49,775 bases of DNA from a virus, in IMG/VR virus record IMGVR_UViG_3300025133_000168, positions 1-49,775 of that record. One strand, written 5' to 3'. The notes beneath the pieces were generated by a model. It did not search any database and was not told the DNA's origin. It saw only the letters and a program-made list of their open reading frames with translations. This document shows positions 18,198 to 41,100 of the stretch, one piece after another. Positions within the stretch are counted from its first letter, which is position 1, and every line of letters starts with the position of its first letter. Both the position numbers and the translations under genes were made by a program.

Positions 18198-18502
18198 ATC
18201 CAATTTAATCATCAAGTCGAAACCGGACGTGAAACCTCACATACGATACACGAACGTCAAACCTGCAACGGCTGTCACGCATCCGTTTCAAAGATCTAGC
18301 ATCCTTGATATTGTGGGTGGTGCAAGTACCTAGGTACCGGACAGGACATCAGGCAGACCCTCGGAACGTTGGCAGTTAGTACCCCTCCAAAGTAAACCTC
18401 TGATGATTAATTAATAGGCCCCAAGACTGACCATCTTGGACAAAGGCATATGGTCAAGTGCACAAAAATGGCCCTTAGCGGGGTCAAAACAAGGAGTAAC
18501 AT
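18198..18502 (+). other. Gene-free leader upstream of the Ub-like gene
   Basis: About 300 bases without a gene between RNA element B and the Ub-like gene. It includes GTACCTAGGTAC (a 12-base perfect palindrome near 18327-18338) and the possible stem GACTGACCATCTTGG/CCATATGG-type pairs near 18424-18452. It ends with AAGGAG 8 bases before the ATG at 18503. A promoter probably lies here, but no clear sigma-70 match was found. Confidence 0.35.
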
Positions 18503-19219
18503 ATGTTTACTGTAGGATATGGCGTTGGTGTCAACGCAACCCGCGACGAGAATAATTACCGCTCGATCGCACAGGTGCTGAGTGACTCGAGCCTCATCGC
18601 TCAGCTCAGCTTCGACCCGAATCAGGTTGACGCACGTGTCGGTGGTCAGATCGTTGATACTAGCGCGGCAGTAACTGCCAACATGCGCATCGAACTGGTT
18701 AAGAAAGCCGGACGTAAGTCCGCTGACGAAGCCGGACCGCTGATGGGTTCCGACAATCAGCTCGCGTCTATCGGCGTGAGCTATGAAGTGAACCAGATTC
18801 TGAGCCGCAAAGTGGCCGATGCGAAAGCACCGTTCTACGAAAAGCTCCAGAAAGCGGAAGCTGATCTTCGTAAAGAAGTGGTAGCGGCTCAGCGTGAAGC
18901 GGTTAAAGGTAGCGAAAACTTCATGAAATACGAAGAAGCTATCATCGACCGTCTGGTCGAAGCCAACTTCGTCGATAACGTAGGTAGCCTCACGGTTCCT
19001 GTTGCTATCCGCGAAGAACTCGCCGCAATCGCGACTACTGCTGATGCGTCTCTCGAGAGCGTCCGTAAGGAAGTCAAAGATGCGGAAGCGAAAGTCAACG
19101 CATGGCACACTTCGGTTTACGCCGATCTGGCTATGACCGTGACCATCGCTGACCAGAAGAAAGTTCTGGCTAAAGTGGCCGTATCTGATCCCCTTCAGGT
19201 ATGGACCATCGAAGCGTAA
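18503..19219 (+). CDS. Beta-grasp (ThiS/ubiquitin-like) protein with helical C-terminal extension
   Basis: A 238-residue protein. Residues 1-73 follow the ThiS/Ub-like beta-grasp order. Strand 1 is MFTVGYGVGVN, strand 2 is TRDENNYRSI, and a helix runs from AQVLSDSSLIAQL to the FDPNQ turn. Then come strand VDARVGGQIVD and a final strand MRIELVKKAGRKS. The last two align with the V-x-V-N-G-x-x-V ... D-R-V-E-I-V segment of ThiS and PRTRC-C-type proteins. Residues 95-235 are helical and coiled-coil-like. No C-terminal diglycine is present, so it would need processing after about residue 73 or act non-covalently. It is flanked by a structured leader and a strong terminator. Homology is inferred from pattern; the E1, E2-like and JAB genes downstream support it. 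Confidence 0.6.
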   Translation: MFTVGYGVGVNATRDENNYRSIAQVLSDSSLIAQLSFDPNQVDARVGGQIVDTSAAVTANMRIELVKKAGRKSADEAGPLMGSDNQLASIGVSYEVNQILSRKVADAKAPFYEKLQKAEADLRKEVVAAQREAVKGSENFMKYEEAIIDRLVEANFVDNVGSLTVPVAIREELAAIATTADASLESVRKEVKDAEAKVNAWHTSVYADLAMTVTIADQKKVLAKVAVSDPLQVWTIEA

Positions 19220-19244
19220 TCTGACCATTCTGGTCTAATAAGAA

Positions 19245-19277
19245 CCCCCTCTTGCAAGCTCAGGAGAGGGGGTTTTT
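19245..19277 (+). terminator. Rho-independent terminator after the Ub-like gene
   Basis: A perfect 8-bp stem CCCCCTCT/AGAGGGGG with a 12-base loop is followed by TTTTT. It ends the Ub-like transcript 25 bases after the stop codon and separates it from the tRNA-like element. Confidence 0.85.
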
Positions 19278-19302
19278 ACCTATTTTAAGTTTTAGAACCC
19301 CC

Positions 19303-19469
19303 GGGCCTATGGTGTAGTGAAACACACCTTCGGGCGGTCGGATAGGGGCTACACCAACGCGTGGTTGGTGGTCCCAAAAGCTAAACAGGAAATGAATGAG
19401 CCTGTTTTTGGTCTAAAAATACACCCGTCTGCCAGAAGGAATCCCGGCTCGTACCCGGTAGGCCCACCA
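19303..19469 (+). ncRNA. 167-nt tRNA-like / tmRNA-like RNA with encoded ACCA end
   Basis: GGGCCTA (19303-19309) pairs perfectly with TAGGCCC (19459-19465), followed by encoded A-CCA. After U and G comes a D-arm-like hairpin GTGT-AGTGAA-ACAC. A T-arm-like hairpin CCGG-CTCGTAC-CCGG (19444-19458) abuts the acceptor strand; its loop differs from TTCGAAT at the 54 and 58 positions. In place of the anticodon arm is an extended helix, 19327-19341 with 19425-19439, 13 pairs with two single mismatches. Its 83-nt cap holds two perfect 7-bp hairpins (CACCAAC/GTTGGTG and AAACAGG/CCTGTTT). This plan is tmRNA-like, but too short and without an evident tag frame. Identity as tRNA, tmRNA relative or decoy is open. 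Confidence 0.6.
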
Positions 19470-19541
19470 ATTTCAGCTACTACAGGTAGCTAATTTTCAC
19501 GCTCTTCCCCCTCTTTTTCACCATAAATAAAGGAAAAAACC

Positions 19542-20009
19542 ATGAACATACCACAGAATGTAGCAAATATCATCGACCGTCGAATCGACGAAGCGATGAA
19601 CGCCGAGCAAAATTACTGCAACCAGAAGGTGCGCAAGCACAAGGAAGCGACGTATGACAAGATCGACGCCATTAAGACCAAGCCCCTTACAAAGGCCGGG
19701 ATTGCCATCGTGAACGCCGCGATCGCGAACAACGACATCATTGAACAGCACGACATCATGTCCGCCGCTGATAAGAAACGTGTCATCGCGCTTCGCAAGA
19801 AGCATAATGGGTACGAAACGACTCAGTGGCGTCGCCGGGATAAGATCCGTAAACAACTCACGAAGCTCAAAGTAGCTGTCGGAGCTGATCTGGAACTTTG
19901 TAACTCCCGTGACGAACAGCGTGCGCTCTTGGCGAAGTTCAAGACCCATCCTCTGGATAAGGTCTGGATCATTCCAAAGAAGCCCCACACCCAACCGGAT
20001 TACGAGTAA
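19542..20009 (+). CDS. 155-residue basic helical protein
   Basis: MNIPQNVANIIDRRIDEAMN and so on. It is Lys/Arg-rich and helical throughout, with KVRKHKEATYDKIDAIKTK and QWRRRDKIRKQLTKLKVAVG. Nucleic-acid binding is plausible. The ribosome site (AAGGAAAAAACC) is close to the ATG. The gene stops one base before the next gene begins, so they are co-translated. Family not recognised. Confidence 0.6.
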   Translation: MNIPQNVANIIDRRIDEAMNAEQNYCNQKVRKHKEATYDKIDAIKTKPLTKAGIAIVNAAIANNDIIEQHDIMSAADKKRVIALRKKHNGYETTQWRRRDKIRKQLTKLKVAVGADLELCNSRDEQRALLAKFKTHPLDKVWIIPKKPHTQPDYE

Positions 20010-20010
20010 G

Positions 20011-20262
20011 ATGCCCCTGCAAATTAAGGACTTCGTTAGCTACGCCTTTGAGTGCCAGATTTGTGGCTCTCAGGGCGAGGTTGGCGTATCGCAGGCCAGT
20101 TGCCTAGATGGAGCTATCGCCACGATGCAGGCAGACGGATGGGGTATGACGAAGTACAAGGAAGAGTCAGAGGACCTCAAACGCCTCGCTTGCCCTGAAT
20201 GCTTCATCGATACCCCGAAACGTTCAATCCACGGAAATTCATTCGATGATCCTGATATTTAA
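20011..20262 (+). CDS. 83-residue zinc-finger-like protein
   Basis: MPLQIKDFVSYAFECQICGS, with CQIC and later CPEC pairs (LACPECFIDTP), giving a likely treble-clef or ribbon metal site. The ATG follows the previous stop directly (TAAGATG). A region with Ser/Ala/Thr-rich helices and one Trp lies between the Cys pairs. It could be a transcription or host-takeover factor, but function is unknown. Confidence 0.6.
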   Translation: MPLQIKDFVSYAFECQICGSQGEVGVSQASCLDGAIATMQADGWGMTKYKEESEDLKRLACPECFIDTPKRSIHGNSFDDPDI

Positions 20263-20629
20263 TAACTGATTTTGCCCCCGGTCGGGACGCTTGACAGCCA
20301 AGTCTCAGCCACTGCAACCACCAAACTAAGTACCGCAAAACACGCCTTCTTGGCCTCTGTAGGGGAAAAAAAGTTAGGATAGGCCACATCAGTGCAAGAC
20401 CGCGAACCTGTAGGCCGTGGCAAGAATCACGACCACCGTTCAGCTTATAGCTAGGGAAAGGCTTTTTAGAGAACAAGTAGATGATCCGACGATACGAGTA
20501 GGGATGGGACGCATTAGTGCGGCCCGCCACGAAAGTGCGATCATTGAGTTCTGAAACTAGAAAGTCCGAGCCCGTCTAGGGGCAGACCATCTTGGGCGTA
20601 AGCCCGGGAACGACAATCGAAACGTCGCT
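20263..20629 (+). ncRNA. Gene-free structured region preceding a strong terminator
   Basis: There is no gene in about 370 bases. Stems include ATGATC/GATCAT (near 20480 and 20540) enclosing CGCA-TTAG-TGCG, then GTCT...AGAC (20574-20588) and GGGC-GTAA-GCCC (20595-20606). Together with the perfect terminator just after it, this looks like an independent RNA gene of roughly 350-400 nt. Short matches to RNase P conserved words (GAAAGTCCG, CTTATAG) occur, but in the wrong order. Confidence 0.45.
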
Positions 20630-20663
20630 GTTCCCCGTCCTTCGGGATGGGGAACTTTTTTTT
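20630..20663 (+). terminator. Strong rho-independent terminator
   Basis: An 11-bp stem GTTCCCCGTCC-TTCG-GGATGGGGAAC is followed by eight T. It ends the structured region at 20263-20629 and lies about 50 bases before a coupled leader peptide. Confidence 0.9.
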
Positions 20664-20710
20664 ACATGGGGACTACGAATGACCGAATCAACCACATGGA
20701 GGTTAGCCAA

Positions 20711-20752
20711 ATGTTTAACAGATTGCACCAGTTGATGTGTGGGGGCGCATAA
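20711..20752 (+). CDS. 13-residue leader peptide coupled to next gene
   Basis: MFNRLHQLMCGGA, with GGAGG 8 bases upstream of its ATG. Its stop overlaps the ATG of the following gene (TAATG), while that gene has no ribosome site of its own. This fits a minicistron that delivers ribosomes to the next start. Confidence 0.45.
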   Translation: MFNRLHQLMCGGA

Positions 20753-21168
20753 TGCCCTCCAGATCAAGAAACCGAACAATGGAAATCGACAGAGCTCCGT
20801 ACGAAAAACTCTCGACCGGGTGGAGAACCGGGTTCGAAAAGCCGGGACAGCTCATCGAAAAGGTAAAGCTAAATACCCGGTACATGGGGGGCACAGAGCG
20901 AACTAAATCCGTGAAACTTATGTTACAGCGGAAGAGGTCGCTGATGGTATTCGCCGCAAAGTACCTGCACATCAAGATGCACACCCAATTCGACAGCGAC
21001 ATCAACGAAATGGTGAAGCTCTTCACGGCGGTACGGTGTTTGTTCATCATCAAACGCGAGCTGTCGTACCGATGGCTCAAGGAGATTCCATGGACAGACC
21101 CGTTCACCGATAAAGCGGTGGCAATGCGTAAGAGGGACCACGTAAGGAGTACCATATATGACAACTAG
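20752..21168 (+). CDS. 138-residue basic hypothetical protein
   Basis: MPSRSRNRTMEIDRAPYEKL and so on. Strongly basic with long helices (KSVKLMLQRKRSLMVFAAKY). The start at 20752 is favoured by the TAATG coupling with the leader peptide. An ATG five codons upstream is the alternative. It overlaps the next gene by 11 bases. No family recognised. Confidence 0.55.
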   Translation: MPSRSRNRTMEIDRAPYEKLSTGWRTGFEKPGQLIEKVKLNTRYMGGTERTKSVKLMLQRKRSLMVFAAKYLHIKMHTQFDSDINEMVKLFTAVRCLFIIKRELSYRWLKEIPWTDPFTDKAVAMRKRDHVRSTIYDN

Positions 21169-21550
21169 AAGGGCAGGCGAGAGCCCAACGAAACTCGAAT
21201 CGGCGATCATCAGTCTGCACGAACACAAAGATAAGTACTCGTGCTTTCAGATCGCCAACATGCTTCAGATTGACCCACTCACCGTGCGTCGTGTCACCAA
21301 TTACTGGTGCGCTGAAGAACCCCACAACCAACCCGGAGAGAAAACAACCATGGCAAAAAGTGATAAAAACAAAGATAAACGTGGAAGAAACATGGAGAAG
21401 CTTCGCGAAGGCGACCCTCTCTACACCATCCCAATGGATGACGTTCGTGGGTTGCTCGGCGACCTCGAAGACGGTGAATGCCTGATCTGCATCAGGACAT
21501 CTCAGACAGGTAAAGTTAACATCAGGCTAGGCGACTGCGCCTACTCATAA
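21158..21550 (+). CDS. Helix-turn-helix protein, 130 residues
   Basis: The N-terminal 50 residues contain KLESAIISLHEHKDKYSC, then FQIANMLQIDPLTVRRVTNY, which reads as a compact helix-turn-helix (recognition helix DPLTVRRVTNYW). A lysine-rich linker (SDKNKDKRGRNMEKLRE) joins a small C-terminal domain (YTIPMDDVRGLLGDLEDGE). AAGGAG lies before the ATG. The last base of its stop starts the next gene. It probably regulates transcription, perhaps of the Ub-like operon that follows. Confidence 0.6.
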   Translation: MTTRRAGESPTKLESAIISLHEHKDKYSCFQIANMLQIDPLTVRRVTNYWCAEEPHNQPGEKTTMAKSDKNKDKRGRNMEKLREGDPLYTIPMDDVRGLLGDLEDGECLICIRTSQTGKVNIRLGDCAYS

Positions 21551-21747
21551 TGAAAACTCACATCATAATTGAAGTGGAAACAGGAGAAACAGTAACCGGA
21601 GAAAGTCTTCCGGGAGCGTTCTTCAGTTTCAAATCGGACCTCGCCAAATGGGTAGAGGAGCAAAATAAAGCGATATACTTCGGAACCCCCGACCCCATCT
21701 CTTGGGACGCTAAGGTTCTCAACACGTATCTCGAAATACAGGACTAG
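21550..21747 (+). CDS. 65-residue hypothetical protein
   Basis: MKTHIIIEVETGETVTGESL and so on: two beta strands, a helix (FKSDLAKWVEEQNK), then a short strand and helix. The order is vaguely beta-grasp-like, but too little is conserved to claim it. Start overlaps the upstream stop (TAATG). It lies 6 bases before the E2-like gene and may be a component of the same system. Confidence 0.55.
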   Translation: MKTHIIIEVETGETVTGESLPGAFFSFKSDLAKWVEEQNKAIYFGTPDPISWDAKVLNTYLEIQD

Positions 21748-21753
21748 AAAACC

Positions 21754-22725
21754 ATGAATACGACAAGATACGAATTATCCTCTTCAGGCCAACTCGTTGA
21801 AGTAATAGAAACCCGCTCTGCGATAATCAACTCAGAACAGATCTTCAACGTGCTTAAAGAACAAGTAAATGCCCCTGAAGACGAAACCCCGGTAGCCGAT
21901 CAGATCGGAAACTTGAAAACCTTCTACAACCTCGGCGACGGGGTTTGCGGATTCCAACGGGAGTACGGAAGTAGCATGAAGACCTTCGGCGGTGTCATGC
22001 TACAAAAGATTCCGTTTTACACCCAGTGGGTCTTGAACGAAGAAGCCGCAATACATGAGCTAATCCCTTGGACCGGACGAGGCGACGTCCTTGACATAGG
22101 GGCACCGCTTATGATGGACGTGCCGGATGACTTAATCGTCCATTTCTTCGTTGAATGGAAGCACTCAATGCCCATAAACATCATCAACCCGAGTGCGGAT
22201 CTCGTCTGGAGACTCCCTGAACTGCTCCGGCAGAACTCTCGTTCCCACTACCTGACGGCGTTTAGCCGTAGCCGAAACACCTGCGTACGTTTACCGTTGC
22301 CGAATCTGTACGATGACGCACGTTTATGTACCGGCTCGGCGTTCCGGGCACCGGGATTTGCTAACCCGCGTAACCACTGGGGCTTCACAACTTCAGTTAA
22401 AACGTACGCGCACTACTGGGCCCAAACAGCGTGGAACACTGACCTCCTCGGAGGGCCGGATTCCCGTCTGTCCAGACAGTACTGCCGTTTCGTCCGGTTC
22501 AACGCACATACGGGTAAATATCGCCCGTTTAGCGGGTGTGAAGACTGGAACATGAGTACATCGCCTGTCCCTCTGGAAGACGTTTATCGTCCATGGATGA
22601 GCAATGAACGTCCAACCATGCCGCAGATTGTGCCGGGCGAAGAAGGGTTGTCGGATACCGGCGAAGAAATACCTGAAGCTGAACCCGCTCCTGCCACTCA
22701 AGCAGGTGTACCGGGAGGTGGCTAA
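21754..22725 (+). CDS. E2-like (PRTRC-B-like?) protein with PN-x7-C motif and C-terminal GGG
   Basis: A 323-residue protein. Residues 180-196 read LPLPNLYDDARLCTGSA. P183-N184 ... C192 has exactly the spacing of the ubiquitin E2 catalytic HPN-x7-C segment (HPN-I-Y-x-D-G-x-I-C). It lies after a helical/strand N-terminus (DDLIVHFFVEWKHS, then LVWRLPELLRQNSRSHYL). The His of HPN is a Leu here. A disordered acidic tail (from about 294) ends in PGGG, reminiscent of adenylated Ub-like C-termini. It is followed by an overlapping gene (TAATG), then the E1 and JAB genes. A thioester-carrying role at C192 is inferred, not shown. It may be a B-type component of PRTRC cassettes. Confidence 0.6.
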   Translation: MNTTRYELSSSGQLVEVIETRSAIINSEQIFNVLKEQVNAPEDETPVADQIGNLKTFYNLGDGVCGFQREYGSSMKTFGGVMLQKIPFYTQWVLNEEAAIHELIPWTGRGDVLDIGAPLMMDVPDDLIVHFFVEWKHSMPINIINPSADLVWRLPELLRQNSRSHYLTAFSRSRNTCVRLPLPNLYDDARLCTGSAFRAPGFANPRNHWGFTTSVKTYAHYWAQTAWNTDLLGGPDSRLSRQYCRFVRFNAHTGKYRPFSGCEDWNMSTSPVPLEDVYRPWMSNERPTMPQIVPGEEGLSDTGEEIPEAEPAPATQAGVPGGG

Positions 22726-23600
22726 TGGACATCGCACAACTAACCGACAAACTACGAACCGAGCAGGAGGGATTAGACATATTCCTCGCTTCTGAGAGGC
22801 GCGTCCTAGTCTTGCATGAAATATCAAGGATGTTCTATAATCAGGGCTCAGCCGAAGCCCCTCAGGATACGCCGGCTCAGATACTCCGCCGCAAAATCAA
22901 ACGCTCAAAAAACCCCCAGATCAAGAAACTACTGGACTGGGCACAGTTACATGGAACCACCGGACACAGAGACGCCCTTAGCAGGTTCACGGAGCACCAC
23001 AGACTGCTTAGCCCGTTAGCATTCCTGACCCGCTCTTCGAGCGGCCGGTTATTGATGGACACGATGGGCAACAATCCGAGCATCGCTAATGGAGTTCTTG
23101 TGCGAATCCTTCACGCCTCCCGTAGCTTAGGGGAGGCCGCCGGGTTTTCCACAGATCTGATGACTGCACACCCCATAGAAACATACTTGGCCAAACGTGA
23201 TGACCTCATTGCGCGAATCCAGAAAACGGGTAGCTTCATGCAGTTAATTCAGAAACAGGAAAGGCTACTGCAACGCATCGGTACGACCACAGACATGGTG
23301 CTCAACGACCCCGTGGCCTCCCTCATCAGAGCGGAGGACGTTGAGATGTTTAAATCTCTCTGGGGAGCCCACGTCGAAGCACTGGCAAAAAACACGAGTA
23401 CCGTTAGATTCACAGCCCCGCCAATCCTGACGTATATGCTGTACGAGATCCTCTTCATGTACTGCGATTCGAATCTCTCAGGCATGGGAGCCGACGAAAG
23501 TCTATACCGACGGATAAAGGAAGTACACCCCCTGAAGGACGTAGTGCGCGAGATCCACGCCTCTGCAATTAAAGGCACGCAATCAGCGTTCTTCAGATAA
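22725..23600 (+). CDS. 291-residue helical protein of the Ub-like cluster
   Basis: MDIAQLTDKLRTEQEGLDIF and so on. It is all-helical, rich in Arg/Leu, without recognisable catalytic motifs; Cys is scarce (one, near residue 245, MYCDSN). It is translationally coupled to the E2-like gene by TAATG and separated from the E1 gene by a GGGCCCC/GGGGCTC hairpin. Its fixed position between E2-like and E1 suggests a partner or substrate adaptor. No family recognised. Confidence 0.6.
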   Translation: MDIAQLTDKLRTEQEGLDIFLASERRVLVLHEISRMFYNQGSAEAPQDTPAQILRRKIKRSKNPQIKKLLDWAQLHGTTGHRDALSRFTEHHRLLSPLAFLTRSSSGRLLMDTMGNNPSIANGVLVRILHASRSLGEAAGFSTDLMTAHPIETYLAKRDDLIARIQKTGSFMQLIQKQERLLQRIGTTTDMVLNDPVASLIRAEDVEMFKSLWGAHVEALAKNTSTVRFTAPPILTYMLYEILFMYCDSNLSGMGADESLYRRIKEVHPLKDVVREIHASAIKGTQSAFFR

Positions 23601-23606
23601 ACAGTA

Positions 23607-23632
23607 CCGGGCCCCACAACGGGGCTCGGGTT
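23607..23632 (+). terminator. G/C hairpin between E2-like and E1 cistrons
   Basis: ACCGGGCCCC-acaac-GGGGCTCGGGT can form a strong interrupted stem followed by TATTC only. It is more likely an mRNA-processing or partial-termination element than a full terminator. Confidence 0.45.
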
Positions 23633-23663
23633 ATTCATAAACTAAAAAACTAAAGGAAAAACC

Positions 23664-24365
23664 ATGAGACTATATATTATCGGGGCAGGCGGAACCGCGT
23701 CCTATCTGTTGCCTGTACTCATCCGCACGCTCACCCGGAACTGCGGAATTGAAGAAGTCGTTATCATCGACCGTGATGAGATCGAGGAAAAGAATGTTGA
23801 ACGTCAGAACTACGCCTTTGAAGATGTCGGTAAGAGCAAAGCTCAGATCATCGCCGACAGCCTGAAGGAATTTACACAAATTCCCATCAATGCAATCAAT
23901 GAGTGGTATACGGAAGACTTCGCGCTGTTCCCGAACAGCTTTATCGTGTCGTGCACCGACAACCACCCGGCTCGTCTGGCGTTGCTCAACAGTTGCGATG
24001 TGTATAACTGTAAAGCGGTCATTTGCGGTAACGAAACTTTTTCTGCGGATGCGTACTATTATGAACCGTCATTCCAAAACACTAAAAAAGATCCTCGTAT
24101 TCGGTACCCGGAAATCGTGACAGACAAACAGGATGACCCAACCCGGCCTCCGTGTAACGATGCAGATGCCATCGAAGAAAACCCGCAACTCGCGGCGGCT
24201 AACTTTATGTCTGCCAACCTAGGGATGCACCTCATTCAGCTCTGGCTGTTTGAATTGCATCAATTCGACCTCAAAAAGGACAAAGAATACCTGCCGCTTG
24301 AACTCTCGTCAGCGCTTACAGGAATTAAAGTCCTCAAACATCAGGATTTAAAGGAGCAACAATGA
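23664..24365 (+). CDS. ThiF/MoeB/E1-like adenylating enzyme
   Basis: A 233-residue Rossmann enzyme. GAGGTAS (7-13) is the ATP-binding glycine loop. D36-R37-D38 in VVIIDRDEIEEKN binds ribose/Mg, followed by N44, R47 and Q48 and by K59 in GKSKA. CTDN (97-100) holds the usual Asp. These residues are those ThiF, MoeB and PRTRC-type ThiF proteins use to adenylate the C-terminus of a Ub-like partner. C164 in RPPCNDAD is a candidate thioester cysteine. The chain lacks the C-terminal zinc CxxC pairs of MoeB. AAAGGAAAAACC precedes the ATG. The stop overlaps the next start (ATGA). Confidence 0.85.
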   Translation: MRLYIIGAGGTASYLLPVLIRTLTRNCGIEEVVIIDRDEIEEKNVERQNYAFEDVGKSKAQIIADSLKEFTQIPINAINEWYTEDFALFPNSFIVSCTDNHPARLALLNSCDVYNCKAVICGNETFSADAYYYEPSFQNTKKDPRIRYPEIVTDKQDDPTRPPCNDADAIEENPQLAAANFMSANLGMHLIQLWLFELHQFDLKKDKEYLPLELSSALTGIKVLKHQDLKEQQ

Positions 24366-25423
24366 CTACCACTGAAGGACCAAAAACGGGTTATGAAAAG
24401 TATAAAAACGATCCGTTCGTGAAATTCCTTTTAAAATACTTCGACAATAACTCGAAGGTGAGTATCCCGGGCATCTGGCAACGTTTCATCTCGCAGAGTA
24501 CGCCGGAGTCCGACATAAACCTCTTGTTAGCCCAACTTCAAAACTGGGGTATCGAAAACCCGACGATCGACGTCAACCTCCGGGGAAACGAGCTGTTACA
24601 GGCAATTCTCGACTCACGCCTCGCCCCGATCTTCACAAAAGCAACTGAGCTTGCGGAAAAGAACGGTCTGAAGTGGCCTGAAGCGCTTGAACTCGCCCTG
24701 TCAGCTAAAGGGCACATCCCATCCAAAGCTACGCGAGATATGATCGGAACCGCGAGCATGCATGTCAACGGCGATTTAATCTACACAGAAACAGGTACGG
24801 TCAGATACGAAGTCGTTAGACGCATCCCGGATGTTTCAATGTTGGTCCCGCCGAGTTGGATCTTACGATACTGCGGCCCGGAAGTATCTGACAACGACAT
24901 GGTAACCGCGTTTACCAACGCCCACCATCGGGGGTTTGCCCCAATGGAGCATTTGAGAGCTGGAGGATTCAGCTTGCGGGAGTGTTGGAAAAAGATATTC
25001 CGCAAGACGCCCACGTCACGTTGGGACCGAGACAAGATGACATCAAGTATGGAAGGCATATTCCCAAAACAAATTCAGATATCCCGTTGGGATGATGAAC
25101 CGCCCGCCACTATGCACTTGCTTGAATGTCGACGCTCAGCCATGAAAACTGACGAAGACGTGGACCGCCGAGCAATCCACATGGACTGGCGACGTGATTC
25201 CCGGAATCGTGACCGCATGACGAACATACGCTTTCCAGTCTGCAACAACGTTGATGGCCAGAGAGTCCCTGAAAGTAAACTGGTGTATCGAGGGTACCCC
25301 CGGGTGGCTATAGCCGATCAAGACGAAGACTGGGTGAGTCTCATAACAGCCCTCAGAAATGCGTATGACACGTTAGCCCAAGCATCAAACTATGACGACG
25401 CCCGTAAACAGGCGTTGAGATAA
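24362..25423 (+). CDS. 353-residue protein of the Ub-like cluster, unknown
   Basis: MTTTEGPKTGYEKYKNDPFV and so on. The first 140 residues are helical. The rest is mixed alpha/beta and aromatic-rich (SMLVPPSWILRYCGPEV, HMDWRRDSRNRDRMTNIRF) with several conserved-looking Trp and Cys. It shares ATGA with the E1 gene, so the two are translated together, as expected of a complex. No known domain seen. A hairpin GCCCCC-GCAA-GGGGGC (25428-25443) follows. Confidence 0.6.
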   Translation: MTTTEGPKTGYEKYKNDPFVKFLLKYFDNNSKVSIPGIWQRFISQSTPESDINLLLAQLQNWGIENPTIDVNLRGNELLQAILDSRLAPIFTKATELAEKNGLKWPEALELALSAKGHIPSKATRDMIGTASMHVNGDLIYTETGTVRYEVVRRIPDVSMLVPPSWILRYCGPEVSDNDMVTAFTNAHHRGFAPMEHLRAGGFSLRECWKKIFRKTPTSRWDRDKMTSSMEGIFPKQIQISRWDDEPPATMHLLECRRSAMKTDEDVDRRAIHMDWRRDSRNRDRMTNIRFPVCNNVDGQRVPESKLVYRGYPRVAIADQDEDWVSLITALRNAYDTLAQASNYDDARKQALR

Positions 25424-25480
25424 TCCATGCCCCCGCAAGGGGGCTCACTTTAACAATCATTCATAAAACAAAGGAAAACC

Positions 25481-27115
25481 ATGACCACAGGCATGCAAGT
25501 ATACGACAGCAAACACTTGATAGAACAAGTCAGCCAAGGGCTGTACACCGGGGACATTAAATTAAGCCCACCCCCAATGGAATACCACCCTCAACTGCAA
25601 TGGAACGGGGCCCCTATTGACCGTGACACCTTCCGTCTTGCCCTGTCTTTTTTGAAATGGACACACGACACATTCCACTGCGAAGGGCAGGCCCGTTTCT
25701 GGTATAACCCGGAAACCTTTCAATGGAAAACAGTCGTCCTCCCGCAAGAAAAACACGGATCGGCTCACACCCGTGAAGTAGAAGAAGAAAATGACATTAA
25801 AGAATCCGTTATCACCGCCCTTTTTGAACAGGGATTCGGCGAAGCCGGTACAATCCACCACCACTCAAACATGGGGGCTTTTCAATCCGGCGGCGACCTT
25901 GCCGATGAACTCAGCCGTTCCGGTTTCCACGTCACGGTAGGAAAAATGTCAAATAAAACTGCCGATTTCCACGCGAGAGCGACGTTCAAAGGGATTAACT
26001 ATGAACAGGAAAAAGGAATGATGACCACAGGGCACTGGCTTCCGGGGTTGCGCACCGCAAATAACAAGGGTAAGCATTCACCGCTCGACCGGTCCATCGC
26101 TAACTTCTGGCTCAGCCTCGAAGACCTACCGGAGTTTCCACCGATCTGGAAAACATACGTAGTTGAAGCACCGAAACCGACGACAAACTATAAATACCAG
26201 TGGAACAACTACAGCTACAACAACCAATGGGCAAATAATGTCGGGGGGCGAGGAGCAGGTACGGGGTACTACCAAGCGCACAAATCCCCCATGGAACGGA
26301 ACAAAGAAATCCACAAGCACGACGAGCCCGTCTTCGTCGACAAAATGTACATCGTCTGGCTTCGCAAGCATACGCCGCGCTTTAGGATCAATGTACGCAT
26401 TCCAAAAGCGCAACGAGATGCGATTGCGGCAAGTAACGAGGCGTCTCTGGCCAAGCAAAACGGCATCAAAACCCCAGAGTCCCCCAACAAGGCCGCTGAA
26501 CACGGCGTACCAGATGGCGGAACGCCGATGTTCTCCGCCGCAGACATCCGTAAGATCAATAAGATGTCGGCGGGAGAGTGTACTGAGTACATCCGGGTCC
26601 TTCAGGAGGAAAATCGCGTTAACAGCGAAGGCGTTAAAGAAGAAGTTGAAAACAAATTCAAGGAAGAACTAGTCGATCTGCGTACCACCTACATAGGTGA
26701 CCAGATCACCGGTGATGGCCTTGACGAAGTATTCACCAAGCTTCAACGTTTGACTACCCGAATCGTGCGCATGGTCCAACTCACAGACCTTGAAAACGAA
26801 TCGGAGGGATGCCCGTCAGGCACCGAAGCTCGCGACCTCATAGCCGTATGGATTCAAAAACTCGCGAGTATCATATACGAAATGCACGACGAGGAGTGGC
26901 TCGCACTTGCTGAAGCCTCCTGCGAGGTAGGTCTGGGTGATGAAAATCACTTCTATAATCTGATGTGCGACACTCTCGAACAGTACATGGACGAGGGGAC
27001 TGTTCAGGATGTGTACTTCCCCAATGGGGAGGTCACGGACCTGTTCAAGCGCGACGCAGAAAAAGAAGCTGAAGACATGGCGGACCTCCGCAATACCCGC
27101 ATCTCGGGGACATAA
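25481..27115 (+). CDS. JAB/JAMM (MPN) metalloprotease-isopeptidase
   Basis: A 544-residue protein with a full JAMM signature: H126-x-H128-x7-S136-x2-D139 in IHHHSNMGAFQSGGDLAD, with E68 (HCEGQARFWYNP) the likely catalytic Glu. The family cleaves Ub-like proteins from targets or trims their C-termini. Residues about 200-290 form an Asn/Tyr-rich linker (NNYSYNNQWANNVGGRG), and 350-540 form coiled-coil and acidic helices (VKEEVENKFKEELVDL, LTDLENESEGC). It is the last gene of the Ub-like group and is similar in kind to the Mov34/MPN component of PRTRC cassettes. It could process the 238-residue Ub-like protein, which lacks a free diglycine end. Specificity is inference. Confidence 0.75.
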   Translation: MTTGMQVYDSKHLIEQVSQGLYTGDIKLSPPPMEYHPQLQWNGAPIDRDTFRLALSFLKWTHDTFHCEGQARFWYNPETFQWKTVVLPQEKHGSAHTREVEEENDIKESVITALFEQGFGEAGTIHHHSNMGAFQSGGDLADELSRSGFHVTVGKMSNKTADFHARATFKGINYEQEKGMMTTGHWLPGLRTANNKGKHSPLDRSIANFWLSLEDLPEFPPIWKTYVVEAPKPTTNYKYQWNNYSYNNQWANNVGGRGAGTGYYQAHKSPMERNKEIHKHDEPVFVDKMYIVWLRKHTPRFRINVRIPKAQRDAIAASNEASLAKQNGIKTPESPNKAAEHGVPDGGTPMFSAADIRKINKMSAGECTEYIRVLQEENRVNSEGVKEEVENKFKEELVDLRTTYIGDQITGDGLDEVFTKLQRLTTRIVRMVQLTDLENESEGCPSGTEARDLIAVWIQKLASIIYEMHDEEWLALAEASCEVGLGDENHFYNLMCDTLEQYMDEGTVQDVYFPNGEVTDLFKRDAEKEAEDMADLRNTRISGT

Positions 27116-27156
27116 CCAAGTTACCGCTCGTCGGTTTCATGGTTGTTCCGACGGGC

Positions 27157-27191
27157 AAAAAAAACCCCCTCCCCTGTTAAAGGGGGAGGGG
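27157..27191 (-). terminator. Rho-independent terminator pointing left
   Basis: A perfect 9-bp stem CCCCTCCCC/GGGGAGGGG is preceded on the plus strand by eight A and followed by no T-run. Read leftward it is a stem followed by eight T, so it should stop transcription coming from the right on the minus strand, although the surrounding genes are all rightward. Confidence 0.7.
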
Positions 27192-27285
27192 AACCTATCC
27201 TCAACTCAAACCAAGGAGTCACCATTCAACCTCGGTAAAAACTCAACATATCACACCTATTTAATTAACCAAGGAGAAAAAAACC

Positions 27286-27837
27286 ATGAAACATAATCAT
27301 CCTGCCTCATGGCGGATTTTAAAAGCGAACCCGAAGCCCGAAGCTTCTCGTTCAAGTGAATATCTACTGCCTACGCCTGCCGAACAGGACCCGTACGTCA
27401 TCTCGACGTTTGCGGCGAATGCCCTGCTCCGCCATTACCACGGAAAGAATCTCGTCAAACCCACCACCGCCAAAGGCTTTGCCGAGGCATGTAAAGGGTT
27501 GATCGAGCGCGTCGGTGACTTGTCAAATCTGACCAACGTCAGCCTTGATGCGGACACCACTGTTCGTGAATGGTTAGTCGTCTATGAAAAAGCCTGCCGT
27601 GAACATGGCAAAGGTAATATGATGGACGTCAAACCAACCGATGCCACCGTAATGAAAGACAAAATAAAAGTTATCGTGAAGAAGTCGCTCGTTTACGAGT
27701 CAATTACGGTTGCCGCAATTAAAGGATTCACCCAACACCACGGGCTTACAGTCGATCCGAAGCTAGTCGCGGAACGAGCTAAAGCTGTCGCGGATGCTTA
27801 TGAGGAGTTGAACAATGCCGAAGAGATCCCGGAATAG
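27286..27837 (+). CDS. 183-residue hypothetical protein
   Basis: MKHNHPASWRILKANPKPEA and so on. A mostly helical protein with a Lys-rich middle (PTDATVMKDKIKVIVKKSL) and an acidic C-terminus. AAGGAG precedes the ATG and the 3' end overlaps the next gene by 23 bases. It is the first gene of the replication block. No family recognised. Confidence 0.6.
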   Translation: MKHNHPASWRILKANPKPEASRSSEYLLPTPAEQDPYVISTFAANALLRHYHGKNLVKPTTAKGFAEACKGLIERVGDLSNLTNVSLDADTTVREWLVVYEKACREHGKGNMMDVKPTDATVMKDKIKVIVKKSLVYESITVAAIKGFTQHHGLTVDPKLVAERAKAVADAYEELNNAEEIPE

Positions 27838-28006
27838 ACTAAAGGTGACCGACCTCGAGGACTACTTCCCGTGTAAAAAGTGCACGTACCGGGACGCAGA
27901 GGTGTTCAACGAGATATGCAAAGGCATCCGCGAGAAGAAAGGATACGACGGATGGATCAAGGGTGTCGGATGTGGGAAAAAACCTAAGGAGAAACATGAA
28001 ACATAG
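27815..28006 (+). CDS. 63-residue Cys-containing protein
   Basis: MPKRSRNRLKVTDLEDYFPC, then KKCTYRDAEVFNEICKGIRE. It has Cys at 20, 23, 35 and 53, possibly zinc-binding, and a basic N- and C-terminus. GAGGAG lies within the preceding gene. It overlaps both neighbours. Unknown function. Confidence 0.55.
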   Translation: MPKRSRNRLKVTDLEDYFPCKKCTYRDAEVFNEICKGIREKKGYDGWIKGVGCGKKPKEKHET

Positions 28007-28823
28007 CTATCAGCAGTACAAATTCAAACTACTAAAACACGCCTCAGGCCCTGACAAGAACCCGGTCCATTACGACCCGACTATCTACGGGATGCGGCTC
28101 CAAACGTTACTTAAAGAACACAACGCACAGCAGGAACAAATCCCCGGCGCGGTGCAGGCAGATGATGACGACGTACTGAACGTACTCATATTCACCAACG
28201 CTGAACACGCAATCTGGCGAGGGGAAGGAATTCACTCCTTCATCGACCCCGATACGGAAGCCGTAATCAACCGTGCGATTGAAAAGCTCGACAACAAAAC
28301 CTTAGCGCGTTACCGCCCTAAGAACCTAATCGGAGTCCTCTATCGCGCAAACAAAGACCCCATCCTGTACAACTACTCGTCGGACGACGGTAAGAGTGCC
28401 GGGATTAACATGGAGTCCCTAGGAATCTTCCGTATGGATGACCTTGGTCAAATCGAATGGGGCTCTAGAGGAAACAGGGATACATCCCCAGACGAAAGTC
28501 TCAATGAACTCCGGGACGCCATGCGATTCACGAGCGGCTGTTTCATGATGCAGGAATGTTTCCCCGACGTCTTCGTCGACGGATTGCCTGACTTCGTGAA
28601 GCACCCATCGTGGTTCAAGAAGTTAAACGCCAGAGCCATATCGGTAGACCGAGTGGAACGTGAGGTATGCCCCCACATCCGGCGTGGACACTTCAGATTG
28701 TTATCGGATGACCGCTATGTCCATAAGAAGGGACAGGTGGTCTTCGTTAAATCCTCTATGGTTAAAGGAAAAGCAAAACACACCGAACTGGAGGAACTCA
28801 ATGCCAAGTCGAAAAAGAAATAG
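27996..28823 (+). CDS. 275-residue hypothetical protein
   Basis: The start is MKHSYQQYKFKLLKHASG (AAGGAG 5 bases upstream), rather than an in-frame ATG 11 codons before it. The C-terminal part, VCPHIRRGHFRLLSDDRYVH followed by KKGQVVFVKSSMVKGKAKH, resembles a basic phage segment seen in several replication-region proteins of unknown role. The middle is acidic (QADDDDVLNVLIFT). It overlaps the next gene by 23 bases. Confidence 0.55.
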   Translation: MKHSYQQYKFKLLKHASGPDKNPVHYDPTIYGMRLQTLLKEHNAQQEQIPGAVQADDDDVLNVLIFTNAEHAIWRGEGIHSFIDPDTEAVINRAIEKLDNKTLARYRPKNLIGVLYRANKDPILYNYSSDDGKSAGINMESLGIFRMDDLGQIEWGSRGNRDTSPDESLNELRDAMRFTSGCFMMQECFPDVFVDGLPDFVKHPSWFKKLNARAISVDRVEREVCPHIRRGHFRLLSDDRYVHKKGQVVFVKSSMVKGKAKHTELEELNAKSKKK

Positions 28824-37691: not shown

Positions 37692-38148
37692 AATCACAAT
37701 GGCAATAGACCCCGGCCTATCCGGCGGGGTTGCTTGGTGGGATGGGGAGGAGGCGTACTGCCACAAGATGCCCCAGACCATCAAGGACCTATACGACTTC
37801 CTCTCCAACTTCACTGACCGCGACACGTCGGTGATGATGGAGAAGGTCGGCAAGCATCGTCTCGGTAACTCAGCGCAATCTTCAGCGACCTTCGCTAAAC
37901 ACGTCGGTCATCTGGAGATGGCTTTGGTTGCATGTAGACTTCCAACTCATGAGGTGACAGCCACGGGTTGGATGAAGGAAATTGTTCCGGGCAGGCCCAA
38001 GGGCGTTGAATCCCAACAGGTACGTGCCCGGAAGAATTACATCAAGGACCAGATGCAGAGACGCTACCCCTACCTCAAGGTAACATTGGCAACTGCCGAT
38101 GCCCTTGGGATTATGGAGTACGCGGTGCGTAATAAGGATCGTTATTGA
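37684..38148 (+). CDS. RuvC-like Holliday junction resolvase
   Basis: A 154-residue protein from the ATG at 37684 (MSKITMAIDPGLSGGVAWWD), inside the primase-helicase stop region. RuvC acidic residues are D9 in AIDPGLSGG, E53 in VMMEKVG, D139 in TADALGIMEYA and a nearby E145. It would cut four-way junctions during recombination and before packaging. Its last 7 bases overlap the stop of the giant gene on the other strand. Confidence 0.85.
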   Translation: MSKITMAIDPGLSGGVAWWDGEEAYCHKMPQTIKDLYDFLSNFTDRDTSVMMEKVGKHRLGNSAQSSATFAKHVGHLEMALVACRLPTHEVTATGWMKEIVPGRPKGVESQQVRARKNYIKDQMQRRYPYLKVTLATADALGIMEYAVRNKDRY

Positions 38149-41100
38149 TTCTCAACCGTAACGCCTCCCCGACGACCCCACGTATCTGCGTGGGTGTCGT
38201 TCGCATTTCGCACTTCGGTTCGGAACCTATAGGAGTCATACAACCCCTGTAGGCGGGCCTTCTCTTCTTTGCTTAACCTTTCTGAACGATTTACCCGGTA
38301 ATCAATCGTGCGACGCAGGCTATCGCGACGGGCACGGTAATTGGGTTGGAGAACCGCGAGCCCTAGTAGGTGCTCCTGCAATTTCTCGCTGTCCGGGTTG
38401 TGACTGGACATCTCTTCCACCAACCGTTGGTTGTATTGCGCCCGTGCCTCCCTGCGCCCTTCCGTCTGGACGGTGCGAACGTCGACTCCGTTGAGCTCAG
38501 CGGCACGCCATATCTCAGCGAACTCCTTCTCCAACTGCATCGCCCGTCGCTCGGGAGACATGCGTTGGTACCCCTTACCCGAGGCGGCGTCCAAGTAAAC
38601 CTCCGAAGCGCGTTTCGCCAGAGTCCATTCCGACGCACCACGGGTCACGGTCAGGAAGGGACGCATGCCCAACGGAACCTCGGCGTCGTTCATCCACCCG
38701 GAAGCGACGAACGGAAGCAATGAGTACACCGCCTCCATCGCTACGTCTTCACGGTCAACCGTCCAAGGCTGAGGGGAGAACGGATGGGTCTTCGACCTGA
38801 ACACAATCAGGTTCGCCATGCGAACGACGTTCGACGACTTGCCGTAGAGGGTCTTAGCCGGATGCTGTAGCCACCCGCCAATCTCACGGAGCTGTTTACC
38901 CGGAGTCAGGTACGCACGGCGGTCCGGCACTTCATTCCCATTGGTCTCATGGTAGTGCCTCAGGATCGGAGTGAAATCGATCAGGAACTTTTTACCCTTC
39001 TCGTTGTTCCACGTCCACATTTCATCCCCGTCGTCACCGCTTCCGAACATGGTGAAGATCATCGCCTGAATTGCAACCGGGGGCATCACGAGTACATTCA
39101 TGAAGAATCCGGGCAGGTACTTCGTCCACCGATGGCGCCCGATGGCGCTCTTCGTGACGTCGAATGCGTCGTCCGAGTAGTTCATCGGACCCTCGAGACC
39201 GAAGGCCGCACCCATCGCCTTGCTCATGCCCGACACGTTCAACGCGGACAGCGTCCAGTCCGGGGCGAACATCACCATGTTGGCCCAGTCCTGCATGAGC
39301 GGGTTCATGTGCATGTACTGCTCCCACTCCTGCCCGCCGAGCGCGTCGTTGACGTACTTGGCGATGTCGTGACCAAGCTTTTCGTCGGTCAGGTGTTTGA
39401 GACGGGGGTCCGCACGGAACTTCTCGAACATCTGTTCAGCCATATGCACCTTCATCACCGGAACCATGCCGTGCCACAGGAGATTGTCCGTCTGCCGCTT
39501 GAGATTGCCGACACCCAGTATGAAGTTCCCGACCACGTCGCCCGCTTTCGTCTTCTTGAACAAGCCCTTGCCGTCTTTCTTGAAGGCGTGGCCCGCACGG
39601 GACAGCCACTTCGAACTCTCCTGATAGTGAAGCGCGTCCAACGGAAGCGTCGATGCCTTGAGCCCACGGCCCGCCCACTTGCCCATGATTTCAGGGTTCG
39701 CGGTCATCTCCCGGTACATCTTCAGGCCCTTACGTCCCGCCATCCAGTAGTTTCCGAGGTGGAAGATTGGATTCTTGAACGTCAGACCCACGTTAGCCAC
39801 CGCCGATTCGGCGAGGGCAAGGTGGTGGAACGCCGAGAACCCGACGTTGAGTCCTTTCAGTAGCTTGGTCACACTCAACAGACGGTTCGCGACACCCCAA
39901 CCGAGGGTACGCCCGAAGGATTTATCAGCTTTCGCCTCCTGCAAGCGCCCCTTGAACCCGGTATATGACACGTGCTTGACCACGTTCTCGAGGGTACCTT
40001 GGATGACCCACACCTGATCGACGTTCGGACCCAGTGCGTGAGACTTGAGCGGAACGTACCCCAACCCGGCCATCGCCTCCGGGTAGGCGGTCGCCAACTC
40101 ATTCGCCTGAACCCAAGGGCTCTTGTTGGGATTAAGCGGTGGGAGTTTCACGCTTTTATGTTCCGAAAGCTTTTTACGCAGGTTGTTGAGCATGAGGAAC
40201 CCGGCCTTGCGGTCGTACGGGGTCAACTTCTCCCCGGCGGTGGTGTCCGCGCTTCCCATTACCAGTCCGGGAACCCCATTGATGTCTGTCATCAGGGTGG
40301 AGGAGCGCAGGACTCCGACGAGTCGCGCTTTCTCGGACGTACTTCTCAGCCACGCCGCGAAGTTCTCAGCCACGTTGAACGTACGAGGGTTGAGCCCCCG
40401 TCTGGACATCTCGGAGTAACTGGAGGTCTCGAGGAACGTGTCCTGATCCTCTTGGGCTCCGCCGAGCTTGTTCGGTGCCGATGCAGTCCCGCGATCTTCG
40501 ATGTCGAGGACGTGGAAGACCCGGTTCTCGTGCTTCTTCATCCAATCGTAGCCGACGTTCTTATTCATACGGCTCGCCGCATCGTCGAGCGTCCTAGCGT
40601 AGTCCGTCATCACGGTTTCCCAACTGTGCATCCGTTTGGACTCAGCCTTCTCCCGCCGCTTCCCCTTGAGGGCATCGATCTTGGCGTTGTGCTTGTTCGC
40701 ATCCGCCCAGTACGTCGCGGCTGTCTCTGCGGCGTACCTGCGCTTGGACTTCGGCACAACCCAATAGACCTTACCGTTGTGCTTTTGCTTAATCAGGTCG
40801 TCCGGGCTGTCCCAGTAGTAGATGTCTCCGGCCTTCACGGTACCCGGATTAGCTTTCATGAACTCGACGTACTCTGGACGTTTCGCGGCGCTTGCCGGGT
40901 ACTTATCCCACAGAACCTGCGCCATGATTGAGGTCTGGAGGTCAGATTCCGTACGGATTCCGGCCTCGTACATCACCGTCAACGCCTTGAGCATCGCTTC
41001 GCCTGCCCGTTCAGCCTCCTTGATTTTATCGAGGTCACCGCCACGGGAGTTGGTCATCCTGATCCAACGCTTCGCCGCTTCGGCGAGGATGATCTCGTTC

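Follow-up and report, generated by a model that had tools for sequence, protein, structure and literature searches.

A probable phage-borne ubiquitin-like conjugation cassette related to the plasmid PRTRC operon

The window analysed here is the complete IMG/VR record IMGVR_UViG_3300025133_000168 (49,775 bases), and the region under study, 18503-27115, carries on its plus strand genes for the four components of a putative ubiquitin-like (Ub-like) conjugation pathway. These are a 238-residue candidate Ub-like modifier, hereafter the tag (18503-19219), an E2-like protein (21754-22725), a 233-residue E1-like adenylating enzyme of the ThiF family (23664-24365) and a JAB/JAMM metalloprotease with a long C-terminal extension (25481-27115). 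A sequence-only reading of this DNA had already placed all four components in one region; the position and strand of each open reading frame (ORF) were confirmed, and a plausible ribosome-binding site was seen for most of them. The enzyme genes begin at 21754 and follow the order E2-X-E1-Y-JAB; neighbours either overlap, by 1 or 4 bases, or lie about 60 bases apart. X (22725-23600, 291 residues) overlaps the E2 stop codon by 1 base and Y (24362-25423, 353 residues), which lies between E1 and JAB, overlaps the E1 gene by 4 bases; neither belongs to a known family, as judged by scans of Pfam, PHROGs and NCBIfam.

Relatives of the window E1, JAB and tag were reached by alignments only, not by single sequences. 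The search was seeded with plasmid PRTRC operons, one cyanobacterial plasmid version and Bacillus phage KLEB27-3. An E1 alignment led to 97 viral contigs, 80 of which were kept, and a second E1 alignment added ten more. An alignment of the JAB of the window with that of locus L052 led to 19 loci, and in all 19 an E1 gene was found within a few kb, although the scan had been seeded with JAB only. Bacterial genomes scanned with the JAB alignment yielded no relative. Leave-one-out profiles, built without the window, were then used to search the complete six-frame translation of the window (739 segments) and picked out the named ORFs, with E-values of 1.5e-38 for E1, 1.2e-13 for JAB and 2.2e-5 for E2, the next-best segments having E-values above 1. 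PRTRC_ThiF was the best NCBIfam match for E1 and the Prok-E2_D family was reached from the E2 via its relatives, whereas direct scans of Pfam, PHROGs and NCBIfam recognised neither the Ub-like protein nor the E2. In PADLOC the E1 matched only families of fused E1-E2 proteins, and the other parts had no match.

The E1 is a single-domain protein lacking a rhodanese domain. It matched Pfam ThiF with an E-value of 2.3e-17, and its top NCBIfam match was PRTRC_ThiF (5.5e-18), at 65 bits against a curated cut-off of 145. The adenylation site, which had been described as complete, has all ten residues in place (G7, G9, G10, D36, D38, N44, R47, Q48, K59 and D99), and Cys164 is a candidate for the thioester cysteine. 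In the E1 tree the branch of the window is very long (3.32 changes per column) and falls with the big-phage group having ThiS-like tags, apart from the plasmid PRTRC rows; support values were 80-94, with forks open. The full JAMM signature reported for the JAB was likewise recovered (E68, H126, H128, S136 and D139, within residues 68-139). The only direct database match of the JAB was a weak one to PRTRC_A (E-value 0.068), and its nearest relatives were those of the IMG/VR loci L100, L105, L112 and L052.

The E2-like protein was identified by its leave-one-out hidden Markov model and by hhalign. Its predicted catalytic loop, LPLPNLYDDARLCTG, contains P183-N184-x7-C192-x-G194 and so bears out the PN-x7-C motif noticed at first sight; C192 is the predicted nucleophile. 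The profile score was 19.6 bits against a maximum of 5.2 for shuffled copies, the next of the 739 segments having an E-value of 1.3, and hhalign placed the match on the catalytic loop with a P-value of 9e-5, compared with 0.21 and 0.23 for two neighbouring genes. Pfam Prok-E2_D (PF14460; best E-value 1.2e-24) was matched by 17 of the 20 aligned E2 proteins but not by the window E2, which is Prok-E2_D kin as judged by sequence, reached via relatives only. Vibrio phage D69 and Salmonella phage Arash have matching loops, LPFPNVYGDARMCTG and LPFPNQYGDGNMCVG respectively, and the downstream motif WNTDL corresponds to the FNNDL found after them (FNxDL in phage relatives).

The whole of 18503-19219 had been read as a beta-grasp protein. 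This holds for residues 1-73 (18503-18721), while the other 165 residues form a separate C-terminal extension; the protein has one Ub-like domain, and the extension was not matched by the profile of the tag family. An earlier Ub profile built from PRTRC_C missed the window tag, which was found with the ThiS-like phage subtype. With this ThiS-like profile, made from 15 phage Ub sequences, the top-ranking of the 739 segments was 18500-19216 (E-value 0.0047, next 1.9), and hhalign gave a P-value of 0.0015 with the domain ends aligned (control 0.59). Among 2000 shuffled copies of the tag two scored at least 10 bits, the best reaching 15.4 against the observed 12.8; taken alone, the profile match is suggestive rather than proof. 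An AlphaFold2 model was computed from the first 81 residues of the window protein and 14 phage tags. It had a mean predicted local distance difference test (pLDDT) score of 86.6 and a predicted template modelling (TM) score of 0.70, with the core mostly above 90 and its elements in beta-grasp order. Nearly all of its 50 best matches in the PDB were ubiquitin, SUMO, FAT10 or close kin, at a probability of 1.00 and TM scores of about 0.6-0.7, none with an E-value below 0.001. The fold claimed for this domain therefore held in structure prediction, and the model counts as support, not as independent proof of a beta-grasp, because the rows of the alignment help the model.

Two findings go beyond the sequence-only reading: the set recurs at about 100 phage loci, and the tag of the window has no terminal glycine. 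Counting profile matches with E-values up to 0.05 on contigs called viral by IMG/VR, we found 103 distinct E1 loci including the window (identical E1 sequences dropped), of which 94 have an E2, 80 a JAB, 93 a Ub-like gene and 67 all four components; some of these loci could be plasmid-derived. A chance collection of motifs was ruled out by the six-frame and shuffle controls and by this recurrence as a set. The counts also bear on sulfur-carrier or cofactor chemistry of the ThiS/ThiF or MoaD/MoeB type, which the locus might perform instead of protein tagging. A single-domain E1 of the ThiF family and a tag of ThiS-like layout would suit such chemistry, but the E2 found in 94 of 103 sets is a cysteine E2, no thiamine, molybdopterin or sulfur genes were seen beside the cassette, and the E1 is nearest to PRTRC_ThiF; we regard this explanation as highly improbable.

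Four of the carriers are cultured phages. Burkholderia phage BgVeeders33 has the genes E-Ub-F-E2-JAB-E1, which is the PRTRC order without ParB; Vibrio phage D69 has a triple Ub gene, F, E2, JAB and E1; Salmonella phage Arash has F, E2, JAB and E1 together with a Ub reading frame that its record does not annotate; and Bacillus phage KLEB27-3 has a quadruple Ub gene, E2, JAB and E1. The Arash tag frame (L087, 107-307) ends in ..SRRTGTKG, and the record instead annotates gp251 in another frame (102-320). Tandem poly-Ub precursors were also observed in phages, at L006 (685-1392, about four units), L088 (4301-5092, about three), L030 (1764-2843, about six) and L039 (4586-5692, about five), most of their units having GTKG or GVKG at the end.

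The tag ends across cassettes are consistent with a part for the JAB in tag processing. Lys-Gly forms the end of the beta-grasp domain in 92 of the 93 further cassettes whose tag was scored, the exception (L008) being a doubtful tag match. Where no JAB was detected the tag stops exactly at Lys-Gly (20/20), whereas in 38 of the 72 cassettes with a JAB it runs 5 to 114 residues past this point (Fisher p 4e-6, uncorrected for kinship). This is as expected if the JAB trims a precursor and exposes the glycine, and the conjugated end in the relatives would be ..Lys-Gly. The window fits the pattern in part: its 165-residue extension and the presence of a JAB agree with it, but its domain end does not, since it reads KKAGRKS, with K72-S73 (Ser codon TCC) where the relatives have K-G. 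A search of the region for another tag gene, one with a ..KG end, found none. K72-S73 could mark a shift of the processing site, a variant end or a loss of conjugation; with the altered residue and the 165-residue run-on, this tag may be cleaved, and may end when mature, at another place than in the relatives, and it may or may not be competent for conjugation.

Should conjugation have been lost, the cassette would be repurposed or decayed, with a tag that has no conjugatable end and with the Ub-like domain, E1 and E2 acting non-covalently, or with the whole locus losing function. The Lys-Ser end, set against the Lys-Gly of every other scored cassette apart from the doubtful one, speaks for this, as do the very long E1 branch and the divergent E2. 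However, the nucleotide-binding residues of the E1, the JAMM residues and the cysteine loop of the E2 are intact, and the reading frames of the cassette are all open, with overlapping, apparently coupled starts that are not expected to survive decay. We consider decay or repurposing unlikely.

Iyer et al. (2006, PMC1779556) predicted a bacterial operon type, 6d, in which genes for a Ub-like protein, JAB, E1 and E2 are joined by one for a helical protein; its plasmid form is called PRTRC. The set in the window is closest to this plasmid PRTRC operon and not to Bil. It shares with PRTRC a ThiF-type E1 with no rhodanese domain whose best NCBIfam match is PRTRC_ThiF, a weakly PRTRC_A-like JAB with the same JAMM layout, an E2 linked to Prok-E2_D through intermediates, a Ub-like gene lying upstream and additional genes for divergent proteins within the operon; X and Y are two candidates for the fast-diverging F, or alpha-helical, partner. 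It differs in being phage-borne, in an E1 that falls below the curated PRTRC_ThiF cut-off and in its gene order, Ub ... E2-X-E1-Y-JAB as against E-C-F-B-A-ThiF, and no match to a ParB-like or E gene was obtained among the ten ORFs scanned (18503-28820). Its tag, which belongs to the ThiS-like subtype, carries a long extension and lacks the conserved C-terminal Gly of the small Ub-like protein of PRTRC, and its E2 lacks the downstream His.

Also close to the window are the IMG/VR phage cassettes L052, L098, L100 and L102-L118, which have the closest JABs, ThiS-like tags and E1 proteins of about 235 residues and are its neighbours in the E1 tree. Their tags, in contrast, mostly end at or within 2 residues of Lys-Gly, and their gene order is mostly JAB-E2-E1 or E2-JAB-E1. 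The cultured phages resemble the window in their complete or near-complete sets and JAMM motif, with the E2 loop LP[FL]PNxYxDxxxCxG common to D69 and Arash, but they belong to other phage backgrounds and have PRTRC_C-like tags, which are single in BgVeeders33 and Arash, triple in D69 and quadruple in KLEB27-3. A second E1-like gene was observed downstream of the cassette at L102 (11587-12447) and L103 (11634-12494). Several cassettes are also flanked by ORFs with the motif RIYIYKITFEEVxYYYYG (L104 7658-8545 and 11646-12644, L107 13596-14261, L117 2662-3486), which look like homing endonucleases.

Bil also unites Ub-like, E1, E2 and JAB proteins, and kinship with it had been raised in the sequence-only reading. 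In that host defence system BilA has two Ub-like domains, the E1 has two domains including a Cys domain, and the E2 has a CEHH motif (PMC11354881). None of these Bil features was seen in the window, where a single-domain E1 is accompanied by a tag with one Ub-like domain, and membership of Bil was rejected. A related proposal is counter-defence, in which the JAB would strip tags attached by the host (by Bil, the cyclic oligonucleotide-based antiphage signalling system (CBASS) or another system) and the remaining genes would be accessory. A JAB is indeed present in the window; work by Hor in 2024 reportedly found that Bil tags phage parts; and JAMM proteases of other mobile elements (Borgs) have been proposed to remove host tags (PMC12660748). 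On the other hand, a JAB was undetected in 23 of the 103 phage cassettes, nearly all of which keep E2 and tag, indicating that conjugation is the common core, and a pure deconjugase would need no E1, E2 or tag of its own. Because so many sets keep E1, E2 and tag without JAB, deconjugation as the main role is quite unlikely.

The surrounding genome is that of a tailed phage, with the left part on the minus strand and the right part on the plus strand. The left part encodes a major head protein (phrog_267, 2e-37), a head-tail adaptor/portal protein (1.7e-38) and the terminase large (4e-20) and small (1e-13) subunits, and the right part forms a replication arm with a DEAD-type helicase, a PD-(D/E)XK nuclease, DNA polymerase A and a Holliday junction resolvase. 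The claim that a phage carries a PRTRC-type set with no ParB neighbour is thereby upheld. The cassette lies at the beginning of the rightward replication arm, on the strand opposite to the head genes. Rhizobium phage RHph_TM3_14A, whose capsid protein shares 38% identity with its counterpart in the window, has a similar general layout with different genes between the head block and the replication genes, the space occupied in the window by the cassette.

This position bears on a possible role in virion maturation or assembly, in which structural proteins of the phage would receive the tag or be the place of its trimming, in the manner of lambda TAPI/TAPK. Lambdoid phages do have paired Ub-like (TAPI) and JAB/NlpC (TAPK) genes within the tail gene block (PMC1779556), a pairing of Ub-like protein and JAB that the window shares, and PAAR genes lie some kb from the Arash and D69 cassettes. 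Mass spectrometry of purified Arash particles also detected the E1 (Gp246, 95 spectra), the JAB (Gp247, 430) and the E2 (Gp248, 369; PMC10585845). However, the 116 proteins of these particles include many intracellular enzymes, and since the authors allow for carry-over of abundant ones (PMC10585845), the detection shows expression of such genes rather than a structural role. Moreover, the TAPI/TAPK modules contain no E1 or E2, both of which the window has, and a location in the early region, at the start of the replication arm and not on the strand of the head genes, would favour a part in takeover or in replication rather than in building the virion of the window phage. A virion role thus seems to us rather unlikely.

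We consider it likely that the region is a phage-borne, PRTRC-related Ub-like conjugation cassette that would work by trimming and conjugation, the best reading being an early-region cascade modifying host or phage proteins, with the substrate predicted only in these general terms. The 238-residue precursor would be made from its own transcript. Directly 3' of the tag gene, between it and the enzyme genes, a terminator-like GC hairpin followed by a T run was read from the sequence (19244-19278, plus strand), with a loop exceeding the length allowed by the consensus terminator scan; together with the tag gene's own ribosome-binding site, it makes it plausible that the tag is produced separately and in excess over its enzymes. 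The JAB would trim the precursor at the end of the beta-grasp domain, and the exposed C-terminus would be adenylated by the ThiF-type E1 with ATP and perhaps held as a thioester. The tag would then be handed to C192 of the E2-like protein which, perhaps guided by the product of X or Y, would, at an early stage of infection, join it to lysines of a limited number of proteins of the host or the phage; the JAB could also take the tag off. The computed evidence consists of the homology of the four parts, the intact active sites of E1 and JAMM and the E2 Cys loop, the beta-grasp model and the recurrence of the set in phages, from which trimming, conjugation, substrates and timing are inferred.

Several observations weigh against this interpretation. 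Ser73 replaces the terminal Gly of the relatives, and it is chiefly because a serine stands where glycine is expected that our confidence is not higher. The similarity of both Ub and E2 is weak in one-to-one comparison, and single-sequence scans of viral contigs with the E1, the JAB and the 238-residue protein found no close homologue. The fold of the window E2 is predicted from homology only: the AlphaFold2 model of the whole protein was poor (pLDDT 55.6), too poor to judge the exposure of C192, and Foldseek matched it to no E2 fold, so that neither was used. The His downstream of the E2 Cys, described as absolutely conserved (Iyer 2006, PMC1779556), is Thr229 in the window, and several phage relatives have Asn, Asp or Cys there. 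The association between JAB and tag extension rests on about two independent JAB changes in the E1 tree, and the Fisher statistic therefore cannot stand alone. Finally, neither X nor Y could be matched to PRTRC F, the F sequences of the relatives splitting into many unlinked groups.

More broadly, phages of about 33 kb to more than 300 kb may encode complete Ub-like cascades (tag, E1, E2 and often JAB) acting, during infection, on proteins of the host or of rival phages, with the window as a divergent member whose tag is differently processed; we judge this wider claim to be evenly balanced. The operon type was already known from bacteria and plasmids (PRTRC). In the open-access full-text literature, with subscription papers and preprints outside this scope, we found no paper that names phages as carriers of PRTRC or E1/E2/JAB cassettes, and a jumbo-phage survey of 2021 mentions neither JAB nor ThiF in its text; within that literature the phage-borne form is apparently undescribed. 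Bacterial defence systems tag phage parts with ubiquitin-like proteins, and it is surprising for the field that phages here hold tagging machinery themselves. To our knowledge, what the PRTRC operon does for its plasmids or their hosts has yet to be solved, and the cultured phage carriers make the role of the set directly testable. The sets lacking a JAB, with tags already ending in Lys-Gly, offer a minimal three-part system for reconstitution. If the proposal is true, prokaryotic viruses would have a ubiquitination system of their own.

Further features were observed around the cassette. A gene for a 155-residue protein on the plus strand (19542-20009) may be a duplicate of the tag's C-terminal extension (pairwise blastp E-value 5e-4). 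A match of Y to a gene in L095 and L067 (6e-4) was judged to be chance, as that gene lies 5 kb downstream of E1 there and coverage was partial. At 22700-22728 the E2 ends in GVPGGG; since the GGG codons also serve the gene that follows as its ribosome-binding site (GGGAGGTGG), translational coupling may be all that this Gly tail reflects. The 3873-residue protein encoded on the minus strand at 38142-49763 gave a single short match (residues 2252-2376), to PHROGs of no known function. A shared leader, AAGGAAAAACC or a close variant of it, stands immediately 5' of the ATG at 19542, 23664, 25481 and 27286.

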